Source: Burkholderiales bacterium
GTDB taxonomy: Bacteria > Pseudomonadota > Gammaproteobacteria > Burkholderiales > SG8-41
Length of the DNA stretch: 64,000 nucleotides
Assembly: GCA_019635015.1 (NCBI GenBank)
Contig: JAHCAG010000013.1
Span: 1-64,000 of the forward strand
Direction: 5' to 3'
The position numbers and the translations under genes were made by a program. The notes beneath the pieces were generated by a model that was given only the letters and a program-made list of their open reading frames with translations, was not told the DNA's origin and ran no database searches. Every line of letters starts with the position of its first letter. Within the stretch, counting starts at the first letter, position 1. Positions 50,668-56,960 of the stretch are shown one piece after another.

Positions 50668-50743
50668 GCGGGAATAGCTCAGTTGGTAGAGCGCAACCTT
50701 GCCAAGGTTGAGGTCGGGAGTTCGAGCCTCCTTTCCCGCTCCA
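50668..50743 (+). tRNA. tRNA-Gly (anticodon GCC)
   Basis: The acceptor stem GCGGGAA/TTCCCGC, D-loop AGCTCAGTTGG, anticodon GCC at 50701-50703 in a CAACC/GGTTG stem, T-loop TTCGAGC and encoded CCA give a complete 76-base tRNA. Confidence 0.97.
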
Positions 50744-50801
50744 GATCCCCGGGGAAAACGGTTGAAACAGAAACCAGCCGTTTTCCCCTTTTAGTTCCAG
50801 C

Positions 50802-50875
50802 GGCGGGGTGGCAGAGTGGTCATGCAGCGGCCTGCAAAGCCGTGTACGCCGGTTCGATTCCGACCCCCGCCTCCA
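50802..50875 (+). tRNA. tRNA-Cys (anticodon GCA)
   Basis: The acceptor stem GGCGGGG/CCCCGCC, anticodon GCA at 50834-50836, T-arm GGTTCGATTCC and encoded CCA give a 74-base tRNA. Confidence 0.96.
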
Positions 50876-50934
50876 GACATGCGGCAGTTGCCAATTGCAG
50901 CGAGGCCCGGTCCCGGCGGCGAGCGACTCTCACG

Positions 50935-51019
50935 GGGCGAGTGGTGAAATTGGTATACACAAGGGACTTAAAATCCCTCGGCGCAAGCCATACCGGTTCG
51001 AGTCCGGTCTCGCCCACCA
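50935..51019 (+). tRNA. tRNA-Leu (anticodon TAA)
   Basis: The acceptor stem GGGCGAG/CTCGCCC, anticodon TAA at 50969-50971 between AGGGA and TCCCT, a long variable arm (class II) and encoded CCA give an 85-base tRNA-Leu. Confidence 0.96.
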
Positions 51020-51056: not shown

Positions 51057-51512
51057 ATGATTGTTTTTGATCTGGGTTGTGACAATGAGCACCGCTTCGA
51101 GGGCTGGTTTTCCTCGACCGCGGAGTTCGAGCGGCAGCAGAACGAGCATCTGCTGAGCTGCCCACTTTGCGGCAGCACCAGGATCAATCGCCTGATGACT
51201 GCGGTGCGGGTCAATACCGGCCGGGCTGCGCCGCCGGTGTCCGGGATGCCGGAACCGGCAGCCGGAAATCCCGCGCAGTACGCCAACTTCGACGCTGCGC
51301 GCATGCTCAAGCTGATCACCCATATCGTCGAGAACACCGAGGACGTGGGCCGTTCGTTTCCGGAGGAGGCGCGCAAGATCCATTACAGGGAATCCCCGGA
51401 GCGGCGCATCCGCGGTTCTGCATCCGCACAGGAGGTTGATGCGCTGCGAGAGGAGGGCATCGAGGTCGTCGCCCTGCCGCTGCCTCCGCATCTCGCGAAC
51501 AAGCCGCACTGA
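51057..51512 (+). CDS. DUF1178 family protein
   Basis: The 151-residue protein opens MIVFDLGCDNEHRFEGWF and has a zinc-ribbon-like C35-x2-C38 (SCPLCGS) after C8. A helical segment follows (MLKLITHIVENTEDVGRSF). DUF1178 proteins are widespread in Alpha- and Betaproteobacteria and have no assigned function. It starts 37 bases after tRNA-Leu and may be read with the tRNA transcript. Confidence 0.85.
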   Translation: MIVFDLGCDNEHRFEGWFSSTAEFERQQNEHLLSCPLCGSTRINRLMTAVRVNTGRAAPPVSGMPEPAAGNPAQYANFDAARMLKLITHIVENTEDVGRSFPEEARKIHYRESPERRIRGSASAQEVDALREEGIEVVALPLPPHLANKPH

Positions 51513-51583
51513 AGCGTTTTTCCTTTCCGGTAGCTTGTTCTGAAAATTGTCATCCCCCGCTCCGTCGAAGCAGCGGTCGCTCT

Positions 51584-51624
51584 TTGACCAGGATCAAGGA
51601 CGCCCCTTTCCTGCGTGATATTCT
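51584..51624 (+). promoter_or_regulatory. FNR/ANR-type box and -10 element ahead of the universal stress protein
   Basis: TTGACCAGGATCAA (51584-51597) differs by one base from the FNR/ANR palindrome TTGAT-N4-ATCAA. A TATTCT hexamer at 51619-51624 puts the likely start near 51631, so the box would be centred about -41, a class II activation geometry. This suggests induction under low oxygen. Confidence 0.65.
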
Positions 51625-51685
51625 GGCGGAACGGGGTTGATGCGTTCCGCAGCAGCCGGCACGACGACTGACGGGAGGGATGAGC

Positions 51686-52132
51686 ATGTTCAAGCACCTG
51701 TTGTTGCCTACAGACGGATCCGCGCTCGCGGGCAAGGCGGTGGCCAAGGGTTTTGGTCTGGCAAAGTCGCTGGGCGCCAGAATTACGCTGCTGAGCGTAG
51801 TGCCGGAATTCCGCATGGTTGCCGACGAAAGTTTCGCCGTGCCGATGAGTGCGCAGCTGAAGAGCCGCTATGAAAAGGAAGCGGCGACCCGGGCCGGCGG
51901 GATGCTGAAGAAGCTGCAACAGAAAGCCGCCAAAGCCGGGCTCAAGGCAGATGTCGTGGTGCTGGTCGGCGATCTGCCGTACCGCCAGATCATCGCTTCC
52001 GCAAAAAAACGCAAATGTGATGCCGTGGTCATGGCCTCCCACGGCCGCCGCGGACTGACCGGGCTGCTGCTGGGCAGCGAAACGGTCAAGGTGCTGACGC
52101 ACAGCAAGATCCCGGTGCTCGTCGTGCGCTGA
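51686..52132 (+). CDS. Universal stress protein, UspA family
   Basis: The 148-residue protein begins MFKHLLLPTDGS and has the ATP-binding pattern G-x2-G-x9-G-S near the C-terminus (HGRRGLTGLLLGSETVKV). I choose the ATG at 51686 rather than 51680 because the GGGAGGG Shine-Dalgarno is then seven bases away instead of one. The FNR/ANR-type box upstream suggests oxygen-dependent control. Confidence 0.93.
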   Translation: MFKHLLLPTDGSALAGKAVAKGFGLAKSLGARITLLSVVPEFRMVADESFAVPMSAQLKSRYEKEAATRAGGMLKKLQQKAAKAGLKADVVVLVGDLPYRQIIASAKKRKCDAVVMASHGRRGLTGLLLGSETVKVLTHSKIPVLVVR

Positions 52133-52145
52133 TCGCGGTCGGGCG

Positions 52146-54056
52146 GTGGGTGATACTGCATCCGGCCGGGAAGGCGACAGGGTCGCGGCCACCGCGCTGC
52201 ACTTCCTCCGTCTCCATCTGCCTTTTGCACAGATGGAGACGGAAGCGCTCGAATTTCTCGTGCGCCACCTCGAACTCGGCTATTACGCGGAAGGCGCCGT
52301 GATCCTTGATCCGGCGCAGGCGGAGCCGAAAACCTTTTTCATCATCCAGCGCGGCAATGTCCAGGTCCTGCCGCCTGATGACGCGCAGGGCCGCAGCCCG
52401 CAGGCGGTCAATCTGGGGCCCGGCGAGTGTTTTTCGGTGGGTGCGACGCTCGAAAGACGCGCGGTGATGTCGCCGTACCGGGCAACAGCCGACACGTTCT
52501 GCTATGAGCTGCCTGCCGCGCATTTTCCGGAACTGCTGGAGCGCAGCCCCGTGTTCGGCGCATTTGCGACCCGCTACCTTGCCAGCATGCTGCGCGAATC
52601 GCGCAAACAAGTCCGCATCAGCACGGCCTCGGCGGCGGTCGAACAACAGGCGATGGGGCGACCGCTGGCTTCGCTGATCGGGCGCAGCGCAGTAACCTGT
52701 CCGCCGCAGGCGCCGATCGGTGACGTGCTGCGGACCATGCAGGAGCGCAAGATTGGTTCGATGCTGGTGGTGGATGAGGCGGGACAACTTGCCGGCATCT
52801 TCACCCGCCACGATGTGCTGGACCGGGTTGCGCTCGCCCAGTGCAGCCTGGCGCGTCCGGTCAGCGAGGTGATGACTCCGCGGCCGCTGACATTGCCGGC
52901 GGAAGCCAGTGCCTGGGAGGCGGCGCTGCTGATTGCCCACCGCGGCATCCGCCATATTCCGGTGCACGACGGGGCGAAGGTGATCGGCGTGGTTACCGAG
53001 CGCGACCTGTTTGCCCTGCAGCGCGTCAGCGTCAGGGCGATCAACCGCACGATTGCCGGTGCCGCCTCGGTGGAAGAACTGGCGCGTGCCGCCGGCGACA
53101 TCCGCCGGCTGGCGCGCAGTCTGGTCGGGCAGGGTATCGCCGCGGAGCAGCTGATCCTTATTATTTCCGCGCTGAACGACGAGTTGACGCGCCGCATCCT
53201 GGATATCGAAGCCGGGCGTTTCGACCTTGCCGGCCTGCGCTGGTGCTGGCTTTCCTTCGGCAGCGAAGGGCGCTACGAGCAGACCATCAGCACCGATCAG
53301 GACAACGGCCTTCTTTTCGAGGGTGACGAAGCGCCGGAAGTCCTGAGGCAGCGCCTGTTGCCTTTCGCCCTTGCGGTCAACCGGGCGCTGGATGCCTGCG
53401 GGTTCCCCCTTTGCAAGGGCAACATCATGGCCGGCAATCCGCAGTGGTGCCTGAGCCTCGGGGAGTGGCGGCAGCAGTTCGGGCGCTGGGTTGCAGACAC
53501 CGATCCGCAGGCGCTGCTGCATGCCGTGATTTTTTTCGACTTCCGCGCATTGTACGGGCAGGAAGACCTCGCACAGGTTCTGCGCATGCACCTGACCGGA
53601 CTGACACGGGACAACAGCCGCTTCCAGCGCCAGCTTGCCCAGTATGCCCTGGAGACATCGCCCCCGCTGGGGCGAATCAGCGATTTCGTCACTGAGGACG
53701 ACGGCGAATTTCGTGGCACCATCGACCTCAAGAAATCAGGTGCCCGGCTGTTTACCGACGCCGCGCGCGTGCTGGCCCTAGCCGCGGGAGTCGCGCACAC
53801 CAGCACCGCACAACGCCTGCGCCAGGCAGGGCCGCTGCTGAACATGGCGCCGGTGGAGATTGCATCGGCGGTGGACGGGTTCTTTTTTGTGCAGGGATTG
53901 CGTCTGCGCACGCAAATGGCGATGGATTCGGCGGCGCCGGCCGTCAACCGGATATGTCCGGATCTGCTCAACGAAGTCGATCGCCGCATCCTCAAGGAAA
54001 GCCTGCGCCAGGCACGCAAGCTGCAGCACAGGCTGGAACTGGATTACCGCCTGTGA
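52146..54056 (+). CDS. cNMP-binding/CBS-pair/DUF294 nucleotidyltransferase-like protein
   Basis: The 636-residue protein has a cNMP-binding-like domain (about 15-145), a CBS pair (about 170-290), a GlnD-like nucleotidyltransferase core with GSEGRYEQ (372-379) and D384/D386 in STDQDNG, and a C-terminal helical domain. This is the DUF294 layout, proposed to be a signal-responsive nucleotidyltransferase; substrates are unknown. It starts at a GTG 13 bases after the Usp gene, so it may share the FNR/ANR-type promoter. An exonuclease gene follows with a 1-base gap. Confidence 0.85.
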   Translation: MGDTASGREGDRVAATALHFLRLHLPFAQMETEALEFLVRHLELGYYAEGAVILDPAQAEPKTFFIIQRGNVQVLPPDDAQGRSPQAVNLGPGECFSVGATLERRAVMSPYRATADTFCYELPAAHFPELLERSPVFGAFATRYLASMLRESRKQVRISTASAAVEQQAMGRPLASLIGRSAVTCPPQAPIGDVLRTMQERKIGSMLVVDEAGQLAGIFTRHDVLDRVALAQCSLARPVSEVMTPRPLTLPAEASAWEAALLIAHRGIRHIPVHDGAKVIGVVTERDLFALQRVSVRAINRTIAGAASVEELARAAGDIRRLARSLVGQGIAAEQLILIISALNDELTRRILDIEAGRFDLAGLRWCWLSFGSEGRYEQTISTDQDNGLLFEGDEAPEVLRQRLLPFALAVNRALDACGFPLCKGNIMAGNPQWCLSLGEWRQQFGRWVADTDPQALLHAVIFFDFRALYGQEDLAQVLRMHLTGLTRDNSRFQRQLAQYALETSPPLGRISDFVTEDDGEFRGTIDLKKSGARLFTDAARVLALAAGVAHTSTAQRLRQAGPLLNMAPVEIASAVDGFFFVQGLRLRTQMAMDSAAPAVNRICPDLLNEVDRRILKESLRQARKLQHRLELDYRL

Positions 54057-54057
54057 G

Positions 54058-54774
54058 GTGCCGGTCTTGAACTGGCTGGGCCGCTGGTTCCGGCGACGCC
54101 CCGCGCTGTCACCGGAGCAGCAACTGGCGCTGTCCGCGCATCGCGCGCTGCCAGCGGTTCCGGCGTCAGCACCGCTGGCCAGTCTGCGCTGGGTGGTCCT
54201 GGACGTCGAGACCACGGGCCTTGATCCATTCACCGACCGCCTGATTTCAATCGGCGCCGTCGAAGTTCTTGGCGACAAAATACCCCTTGATTCGGGCTTC
54301 GAAGCCGTGCTCCGCCAGCCGCAGGCCAGCACCCGCGACAATATCCTGGTTCACGGCATCGGCGGCAGTGCGCAGCGGTCCGGCATGGCGCCCGCTGCGG
54401 CGCTGCTGGATTTCCTCCGCTACGCGGGCAAGGCACCCCTTCTGGGCTTTCACAGCGATTTCGACCGCATCATGATCGAGCGGGCTGCCCGCGAAGCGCT
54501 GGGCATGATTCCTGACAATCCCTGGCTCGATCTCGCCTTGCTTGCACCGGCGCTGCTGGGGAAGCCCGGCGAATCCTTGCCGCAGGGCCTGGACGGATGG
54601 ACTGCGCGCGCGGGGATCGACAACAGGTTCCGCCACAACGCGCTCGCCGATGCGCTGGCTACGGCGCAACTGCTGCAGGTGGCGCTGGCGCGGGCGAGAA
54701 CAGGCGGGGTGCGCACGCTGGGAGAGTTGGTGCAAATCGGGAAGGACAGGCGCTGGCTGGAACGGCATACCTGA
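54058..54774 (+). CDS. DEDDh-type 3'-5' exonuclease (DnaQ-like)
   Basis: The 238-residue protein starts at a GTG and has the exonuclease I motif VVLDVETTGLDP (D49, E51), the motif II region GFHSDFDR (D134/D136) and motif III H193-x4-D198. It lies 1 base after the CBS/DUF294 gene; the two families often travel together in proteobacteria, which suggests joint action on nucleotides or RNA. The precise substrate is unknown. Confidence 0.88.
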   Translation: MPVLNWLGRWFRRRPALSPEQQLALSAHRALPAVPASAPLASLRWVVLDVETTGLDPFTDRLISIGAVEVLGDKIPLDSGFEAVLRQPQASTRDNILVHGIGGSAQRSGMAPAAALLDFLRYAGKAPLLGFHSDFDRIMIERAAREALGMIPDNPWLDLALLAPALLGKPGESLPQGLDGWTARAGIDNRFRHNALADALATAQLLQVALARARTGGVRTLGELVQIGKDRRWLERHT

Positions 54775-54872
54775 GCGGACGAGGGGATGCGAGCCCGCTC
54801 CCCGGTTGTGGTGTAATCCGGAAAAGAACGCACCGGACCCGGTGCAACGCCGCAATCTCACCTATTGAACTC

Positions 54873-56960
54873 ATGAACGAACTCCAGGCGCTGCTCAGCC
54901 CGCGGTCGATTGCCATACTCGGCGCCTCCGCGGATCTCAACAAGGTCAATGGCCGGGCGCTGCGGTTCCTGCTGGAGAAGGGATATGACGGCAAGATATT
55001 TCCGGTCAACCCGAAGTATCAGGCCATAGCGGGACTGCGTTGTTATCCCGACGTCGGCGCGTTGCCTGAAGCACCCGACCTCGCAGTGATTGCCGTACCG
55101 GCGGCACAGGTCCTCGCGGTGGTGCGCGAACTGGGGCAACGCGGGGCGCGCAGCGCCGTGATTTTCAGTTCCGGGTTTGCCGAAATGGGCGAACCGGGGC
55201 GGATGCTTGAGCAGGAACTGGCGGCAACGGCCAGCCGCAGCGGTATGCGGCTGTGCGGACCGAATTGCCTGGGACTGATCAATGCCTTCGACCGGGTGAT
55301 CGCCACTTTCGGCCAGTTTGCCGAGGGCGACACGCCGCCGGGGCCGGTGGCTTTTGTCACCCAGTCCGGCGCCTTCGGCACCGCAATTGCGGCGCTGGCG
55401 CGGCGGCGGTCGCTGGGGCTGGGGTATTTCGTCAACACCGGCAATGAATGCGATGCTGATTTTGTCCAGATCATGCGCGCGGTGCTCGACGATACGCGCA
55501 TCCGTGTCGGTGCCGGGTATCTCGAAGGCGTGCGCGATGGCCGCGGCCTGCGGGCGCTGGCCGAGCATGCGCTCGACACCGGCAAGCCGCTGACGCTGAC
55601 CAAGGTCGGACGCACGGCGGCGGGCGCCAAGGCAGCAGCGTCGCATACCGGTGCGCTGGCCGGTGCAGACGAGGTGTTCGAGGGCGTGATCCGCGGCCTC
55701 GGCGTCACGCGCGCCCGCAACGAGGAGCACATGCTCGACATGGTCGAGGTGCTGGGGCGTTGTGTTTTGCCCGGGGGACGGGGACTCGGCATCGTCACAC
55801 AGTCGGGCGGCGCCGGTGTGCTGATGGCGGATCGTGCCGAGGAAACCGGTCTGCAGGTGACGCAGCTGGCACTGCAGACGCGCGAAGCGCTGGCACGGGT
55901 CATCCCGGGCTTCGGCACCACCGGCAATCCGGTCGATGTCACCGGACAGTTCGTGTCCGATCCCGACCTGCTGTTCGACAGTGTCCGGATCGTGATGGCT
56001 GATCCCGGGGTGCATATCGGTGTGGTGTGGCTGCAATTGATGGATGCCCATGTCGATAAATTGGTAAAAATATTCAATAAAATCAATGAGATAATAGATA
56101 AACCTTGGGTCGTTTGCTGGGTGGCGGCACCCGAGGATGCGTTGCGGCAACTGCGTGCAGCAGGTATTCCGGTGTTGCGGGGCGCCGAGCCCGCGGTGGA
56201 CGCGGTGGCGGCGCTGGCGCGTTATGCGGAGGCACGGCGCAACTGGCTGGCCGATGCGCCGGCGCGCGCGGCGCTGGCGCTACCGCCGCCGGCCTTGCCG
56301 GCCGGTCCCGGCGCGGTCGGCAGCCTCGAAGGCCAGGCCCTGCTGCAGTCCTGCGGCGTGGCCACCGCCGCCGCAAAACTGGTGAAGTCCGCCGACGAGG
56401 CCGTCGCCGCCGCCGAAGCCCTGGGCTACCCGGTGGTGCTGAAAATCGAATCGCCGGACATCCTGCACAAGACCGAAGCAAAGGGTGTGGCGCTGAACCT
56501 GAAGGACGCCGCAGCGGTGCGCGGCGCTTATGAACAACTCCTTGCCAATGCTAGGACCTACAAGGCCGGTGCCCGGATAGCCGGCGTGCTGGTGCAGGCG
56601 ATGGCACAGGGCGATGTGGAACTGGTGATCGGCTTGAAGCGCGACCCGACCTTCGGCCCGGTGGTGATGGTGGGGCTGGGCGGGGTGCTGATCGAGGTGT
56701 TCAAGGACGTGGTGTTTCGCGCCGCGCCGGTGACCGAAGCAGAAGCGCTGCGGATGCTGGATGAACTCAAGAGCCGCGCGGTGCTCGACGGGGTGCGCGG
56801 CAAGCCGCCGGTGGACCGGGCGGCGCTGGCGCGGATGGTCAGTGCGGTGTCGCGCTTCGGTGCCGCCGCAGGTCCGCGGCTGGCGGAGCTGGACCTCAAC
56901 CCGGTGCTCGCCGGGACGCAGGGCGCCACCGCCGTCGACTGGCTGATGCTGCTGGACTGA
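54873..56960 (+). CDS. ADP-forming acyl-CoA synthetase (acetate-CoA ligase type)
   Basis: The ATG at 54873 gives 695 residues. A CoA-binding domain (AILGASADLNKVNGRAL), succinyl-CoA ligase-like domains with the phosphohistidine candidate H258 in SHTGALAG, and a C-terminal ATP-grasp domain (about 460-695) make a complete single-chain enzyme. It interconverts acyl-CoA, ADP and Pi with free acid, CoA and ATP; the acyl group is not clear. There is no GNAT domain, unlike Pat-type proteins. A local AT-rich codon stretch (56052-56105) lies mid-gene. Confidence 0.88.
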   Translation: MNELQALLSPRSIAILGASADLNKVNGRALRFLLEKGYDGKIFPVNPKYQAIAGLRCYPDVGALPEAPDLAVIAVPAAQVLAVVRELGQRGARSAVIFSSGFAEMGEPGRMLEQELAATASRSGMRLCGPNCLGLINAFDRVIATFGQFAEGDTPPGPVAFVTQSGAFGTAIAALARRRSLGLGYFVNTGNECDADFVQIMRAVLDDTRIRVGAGYLEGVRDGRGLRALAEHALDTGKPLTLTKVGRTAAGAKAAASHTGALAGADEVFEGVIRGLGVTRARNEEHMLDMVEVLGRCVLPGGRGLGIVTQSGGAGVLMADRAEETGLQVTQLALQTREALARVIPGFGTTGNPVDVTGQFVSDPDLLFDSVRIVMADPGVHIGVVWLQLMDAHVDKLVKIFNKINEIIDKPWVVCWVAAPEDALRQLRAAGIPVLRGAEPAVDAVAALARYAEARRNWLADAPARAALALPPPALPAGPGAVGSLEGQALLQSCGVATAAAKLVKSADEAVAAAEALGYPVVLKIESPDILHKTEAKGVALNLKDAAAVRGAYEQLLANARTYKAGARIAGVLVQAMAQGDVELVIGLKRDPTFGPVVMVGLGGVLIEVFKDVVFRAAPVTEAEALRMLDELKSRAVLDGVRGKPPVDRAALARMVSAVSRFGAAAGPRLAELDLNPVLAGTQGATAVDWLMLLD

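Follow-up and report, generated by a model that had tools for sequence, protein, structure and literature searches.

A class II FNR-dependent promoter very probably drives, as judged from sequence, the expression of genes for a UspA-type universal stress protein (usp), a cNMP/CBS/DUF294 nucleotidyltransferase, a DEDDh exonuclease and, probably, an acyl-CoA synthetase in a Burkholderiales genome. The window, here the whole analysed stretch of 64,000 nucleotides, carries the following features at this locus.

51057..51512, + strand: DUF1178 gene (PF06676, 160.5 bits), the upstream neighbour, with synteny kept in relatives.
51584-51597, + strand: FNR box TTGACCAGGATCAA, read from the sequence and kept in relatives.
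51616-51624, + strand: extended -10 TGATATTCT, 18 bases behind the box.
51631-51632, + strand: predicted transcription start, placed by the distance rule from the -10 on the sequence reading.
51686..52132, + strand: gene for the UspA-type protein (PF00582, 106.5 bits, cut-off 24).
52146..54056, + strand: gene for a cNMP-binding, two-CBS, DUF294 nucleotidyltransferase, DUF294_C protein (by Pfam; GTG start uncertain).
54067..54774, + strand: gene for a DEDDh-type 3'-5' exonuclease (RNase_T-type; PF00929, 48.9 bits; TTG start uncertain).
54873..56960, + strand: gene for an ADP-forming acyl-CoA synthetase homologue (CoA_binding_2, Succ_CoA_lig, Ligase_CoA_2 and ATP-grasp_5).

The promoter elements lie in the gap between the DUF1178 gene and usp. 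Thirteen of the 14 letters of the box are those allowed by TTGAT-N4-ATCAA, the single deviation being a C for T at position 5, and it is the only exact TTGAY-N4-ATCAA match in the window, in which 92 matches (54 expected) were found when up to 2 mismatches were allowed. This agrees with the sequence-only reading, which had described an FNR/ANR-type box one base off the consensus and centred about -41; we place its centre at -40.5 or -41.5 relative to the start predicted from the -10. The same reading took TATTCT (51619-51624) for the -10, which stands, but overlooked the TG at 51616-51617, which makes it an extended -10. A palindrome of or near TTGAT-N4-ATCAA, a centre near -41.5, the presence of a -10 and the lack of a proper -35, all measured against the predicted -10, would assign the site to class II. 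Structured RNA leaders were rejected, as no such leader was found by the Rfam scan, with nearby matches limited to three tRNAs. These tRNA genes (Gly-GCC, Cys-GCA and Leu-TAA; 50668-51019) are directly upstream of the DUF1178 gene.

Pfam confirmed the UspA-type, cNMP/CBS/nucleotidyltransferase and DEDDh exonuclease identities that had been assigned to the first three genes from the letters. The Usp passes the PF00582 cut-off but falls below every NCBIfam Usp subfamily cut-off listed; since GGGAGGG (51673-51679) abuts 51680, the ATG at 51686 is the more likely start, rather than 51680. In the nucleotidyltransferase, PF03445 (150.6 bits), PF10335 (122.7 bits) and CBS (94.3 bits) scored above their cut-offs, with cNMP_binding just above (28.4 bits, cut-off 27.5). 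Its motif GSEGRxE...TDQDN resembles an active site for the putative nucleotidyl transfer, and residues G372, S373, E374, G375, R376, E378, D384, Q385, D386 and N387 are invariant in 19 nucleotidyltransferase sequences. The HxAxxDA motif is present in the exonuclease relatives. For the synthetase homologue, the closest solved chain is 8wzu, a 4-hydroxybutyrate--CoA ligase [ADP-forming], and the phospho-histidine motif SHTG is present as SHTGALAG; it was also detected in 15 of the 34 synthetase matches scanned in relatives, the other 19 ending before that part. The protein did not reach the cut-offs of the NCBIfam equivalogs for ADP-forming acetate--CoA ligase (best 423.4 bits vs 1300, NF045493; TIGR02717 391.3 bits, cut-off 567), and it is therefore filed only as an ADP-forming superfamily homologue.

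The first three genes are separated by gaps of 13 and 10 nt, bearing out the tight spacing reported earlier, and the synthetase gene begins on the same strand 98 nt after the exonuclease stop and is probably the fourth gene of the unit. No terminator-like sites were found on the + strand across 51400-55000. A separate FNR box for the synthetase was rejected, none being found in the gaps scanned; the 98-nt gap has no box, and the gene behind it may have its own promoter. The description of the genes as a signalling and nucleic-acid module missed the acyl-CoA synthetase, and elsewhere the nucleotidyltransferase/exonuclease pair stands mostly near acetate or acyl-CoA genes.

Behind usp, most loci of the genus show the order nucleotidyltransferase, exonuclease, synthetase. 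The synthetase follows without an intervening nucleotidyltransferase at L196, L208, L209, L210, L213, L214 and L218, and the remaining family loci have other DNA behind usp. Usp looks like the ancestral target of the promoter, and the pair like variable cargo. At four loci (L230-L233, in genomes G018, G004, G020 and G006) the usp orthologue is absent and the box and extended -10 are still 5′ of the nucleotidyltransferase gene, evidence that genes further along are also served by the promoter. It is fairly unlikely that FNR control would reach usp alone, with the nucleotidyltransferase, exonuclease and synthetase driven separately: usp and the box are indeed the constant part in the family while the genes after them vary, and the last gap is the widest at 98 nt, but the narrow gaps within the first three genes, the lack of a terminator-like site and the promoter kept before the nucleotidyltransferase in the four usp-less genomes all argue against such a split. 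At the place of usp, L233 (2387-2452), L232 (2385-2459) and L230 (2403-2474) hold frames of 21-24 codons with a Shine-Dalgarno-like stretch, of which only that of L233 (MFHRILPLV...) resembles a Usp start; these may be decayed usp genes or leader peptides.

Conservation of the promoter was examined in a family set of 57 loci, comprising all 43 Usp matches and 14 nucleotidyltransferase loci without usp; five genomes are present twice, and the set omits nine shorter nucleotidyltransferase matches lacking the N-terminal part. Contig ends truncate two loci (L026 and L193), so that 55 are readable. We searched for TTGA-N6-TCAA within 350 nt and for TGnTAnnnT exactly 18 bases behind it. The box was found in 36/55 readable loci, and 28 of these 36 had the extended -10 at 18 bases, while the other 8 had no -10 at that distance. 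Within the genus, box and extended -10 at the same spacing were present in 15 of 18 readable loci, that is, at all 15 of its box-bearing loci, which supports the proposed class II geometry. In 100 rounds of dinucleotide shuffling, a mean of 0.23 loci had the box (maximum 2) and the composite never appeared. In a hand-picked alignment of 29 box-bearing loci, TGnTAnnnT was invariant in 28 rows; L032, L038, L221 and L222 were left out of it, and none of them has TGnTAnnnT at 18.

As the family loci share descent, the 36/55 are not independent events, and a better argument than this count is how little the bases around the elements are conserved. Across the 15 genus box loci, rows selected for the box and not for the -10, each fixed box and TG/TA/T position carries 1.9 bits; the mean information in the genus is 0.09 bits in the 40 bases upstream, 0.52 in the spacer and 0.24 downstream. 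Eight of the 9 genus genomes searched contain the composite TTGAY-N4-RTCAA-N18-TGNTANNNT exactly once, always at the usp promoter locus, the ninth (G006) having a C instead of R, and the reversed composite, used as a control, gave zero matches in the genus genomes searched. The box also follows the layout of the locus: it is present in 27 of 31 loci with usp at least 120 nt behind DUF1178 and in 2 of 12 with a gap below 120 nt, counts in which a few rows have the nucleotidyltransferase as first gene. A plain reading of the short gaps is that usp rides on the upstream transcript.

The host genome, a draft of 2.89 Mb that is about 80% complete, encodes four Crp/Fnr family members above the PF13545 cut-off. 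One of them (L006) is FNR, with the cysteines C-X2-C-X5-C plus a fourth Cys and a score of 260.5 bits on NCBIfam NF008365 (Fnr; cut-off 228), and thus the homologue on which the proposed regulation depends is present. Exact boxes stand ahead of ccoN and in the gap from fnr to hemN, which are usual FNR targets, and therefore the genome-wide check near anaerobic genes turned out as predicted. In total, 17 places in the host genome match TTGAY-N4-ATCAA exactly. The one ahead of ccoN (L048:4182-4195; G000:C19:7881-7894) has on its other side a radical SAM/SPASM gene, whose reading frame contains another exact box (L048:3587); yet another (L048:2536) adjoins a gene of the Crp/Fnr family whose product is closest to FtrB. 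Another (L055:2520-2533; G000:C4:45719-45732) is between the divergent genes for phasin and the polyhydroxyalkanoate repressor PhaR, hinting at a possible oxygen control of the storage polymer, and a further one (L050:2544-2557; G000:C39:86943-86956) directly precedes a small reading frame that encodes a DksA/TraR-type zinc finger.

Of the 20 other genomes of the genus examined, 15 have an FNR orthologue (82-98% identity), and none was found in G002, G003, G009, G017 and G018. Three of these five keep the box (G002 and G018, 93% and 96% complete, and G003, 74%), and the missing FNR there perhaps reflects assembly gaps. Conversely, L029, L030 and L031 of the genus have neither box nor usp, though FNR is encoded in their genomes; thus, the idea that box loss tracks FNR loss was rejected. 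G017, which is 99% complete, has no FNR match and no usp or nucleotidyltransferase orthologue.

Another Crp/Fnr activator, for example one of the nitric-oxide-responsive DNR/NnrR type, could be the one that chiefly binds the box in answer to a different signal. FNR and DNR boxes are near-identical, the host has four members of the family, and the box persists in some genomes in which no FNR was detected. We consider this unlikely, since L006 alone combines the FNR cysteines with a score above the NF008365 cut-off, whereas the other three members have no cysteine cluster, the second member tested (L008) comes closest to FtrB and stays under all cut-offs, and the boxes at ccoN and fnr/hemN fit FNR. 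It is extremely improbable that the box is a chance palindrome or the site a plain sigma-70 promoter with TTGACC as its -35, for although TTGACC resembles a -35 and one-mismatch relatives of the box are many in the host genome (180 forward and 181 reverse matches with at most 1 mismatch), TTGACC was rejected as a -35 with a distance of 29 bases to TATTCT, far from 16-18, and no match here in the promoter scan, the pattern read backwards gave only 31 forward and 23 reverse matches, and both half-sites and the -10 are kept across genera while the rest drifts.

We also surveyed the nucleotidyltransferase/exonuclease pair in named loci, taking the best 80 of the 584 found. An exonuclease match accompanies the nucleotidyltransferase in 77/80, and an SSF symporter or acyl-CoA synthetase match is nearby in 54/80 (SSF symporter 44, AMP-forming acetyl-CoA synthetase 12, ADP-forming synthetase 4), counting neighbours on any strand and at any distance within the DNA covered around each locus, and with some SSF matches only 27-35% identical. 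Among these best 80, the pair thus usually stands in the company of acetate or acyl-CoA genes. Only 5 of the 80 (L056, L057, L059, L060 and L130) have an FNR box in the 350 nt upstream, against a mean of 0.5 and at most 3 in shuffles, and for three of them (L056, L057 and L059) the family counts above already include the genome (G014, G006 and G026). A general association between box and nucleotidyltransferase was rejected on this count, and the predicted FNR control of the pair is, among the loci surveyed, peculiar to the window's family. Long ORFs beside the pair at L064, L067, L085 (minus strand), L114 and L122 had no Pfam match and were discarded as probably not genes. The nearest named record among the matches listed is a Burkholderiales MAG (JALHND010000181.1), with a nucleotidyltransferase 89% identical.

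From the observed elements, their fixed spacing and conservation, and the presence of FNR, we infer where transcription starts, that FNR binds and activates when oxygen is low, and that co-transcription extends to the fourth gene. When oxygen is scarce, FNR would retain its iron-sulphur cluster and form a dimer; bound to TTGACCAGGATCAA, at about -41, it would contact RNA polymerase and so recruit it to the extended -10 TGATATTCT, a promoter with no -35 of its own. Usp, the cNMP/CBS/DUF294 nucleotidyltransferase and the DEDDh exonuclease would then be switched on, probably together with the acyl-CoA synthetase. The physiological outcome may be Usp-assisted survival of energy shortage combined with an ATP-yielding acyl-CoA/acetate metabolism, which the nucleotide-sensing nucleotidyltransferase would tune.

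A bolder and tentative possibility, which we hold to be less probable than not, is that in this betaproteobacterial family an FNR/usp promoter captured the acetate-linked pair, which was joined to an ADP-forming acyl-CoA synthetase; in the resulting oxygen-gated unit, the nucleotide-sensing nucleotidyltransferase would tune how energy is conserved through acyl-CoA/acetate when oxygen runs short. The cargo itself would then be the selected target, since the promoter stayed for it where usp decayed. The class II FNR promoter would name low oxygen as a physiological condition for the widespread DUF294 nucleotidyltransferase/exonuclease pair, and would give, besides the CrbS/R acetate regulon, a second and independent regulatory direction tying the pair to acyl-CoA metabolism. 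The series of loci with the promoter kept and the first gene present or lost is useful for dating regulon rewiring.

Activation of uspA by FNR has already been published in Betaproteobacteria. Herbaspirillum seropedicae, itself a betaproteobacterium, resembles the window in its Fnr-activated universal stress protein promoters: Fnr activates uspA_1 and uspA_2, which rank with the genes of highest expression once oxygen is switched, while the accessible part of the report does not mention any nucleotidyltransferase, exonuclease or acyl-CoA synthetase gene downstream of them (PMC5934665). In Candidatus Accumulibacter, a predicted FNR motif for uspA, as here, goes with an anaerobic transcript pattern, and uspA shares the positively controlled group with cco, hemN and pta in the part of the report available (PMC6446978). 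The nucleotidyltransferase loci of Accumulibacter (L110, L111 and L115) differ in having no box within 350 nt. An alphaproteobacterial regulon reconstruction, in its accessible part, places the UspA RSP0697 on the FNR list; as here, a UspA is in the FNR regulon, but in another class, and accession numbers suggest a place beside fnr/hemN, unlike usp in the window (PMC2908626). Low-oxygen usp genes are also described for Burkholderia cenocepacia, as far as the available part of that report goes (PMC9104464).

For the partner genes, the closest counterpart is Pflu5625 of Pseudomonas fluorescens, a cAMP-binding/CBS/nucleotidyltransferase protein with, by description, the same three kinds of domain and an acetate connection; according to the available part of the source it belongs to the CrbS/R acetate regulon, under CrbR and not FNR, and its deletion had no clear growth effect on acetate (PMC5715377). 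No report of DUF294 proteins under FNR, or of such a gene unit, was found in the open-licence PMC literature. Since FNR-to-uspA control is established, the promoter alone is ordinary, and the partner gene set is the newer and unusual part: an acetate-linked regulator/exonuclease pair with an acyl-CoA synthetase behind an FNR-type promoter is less expected.
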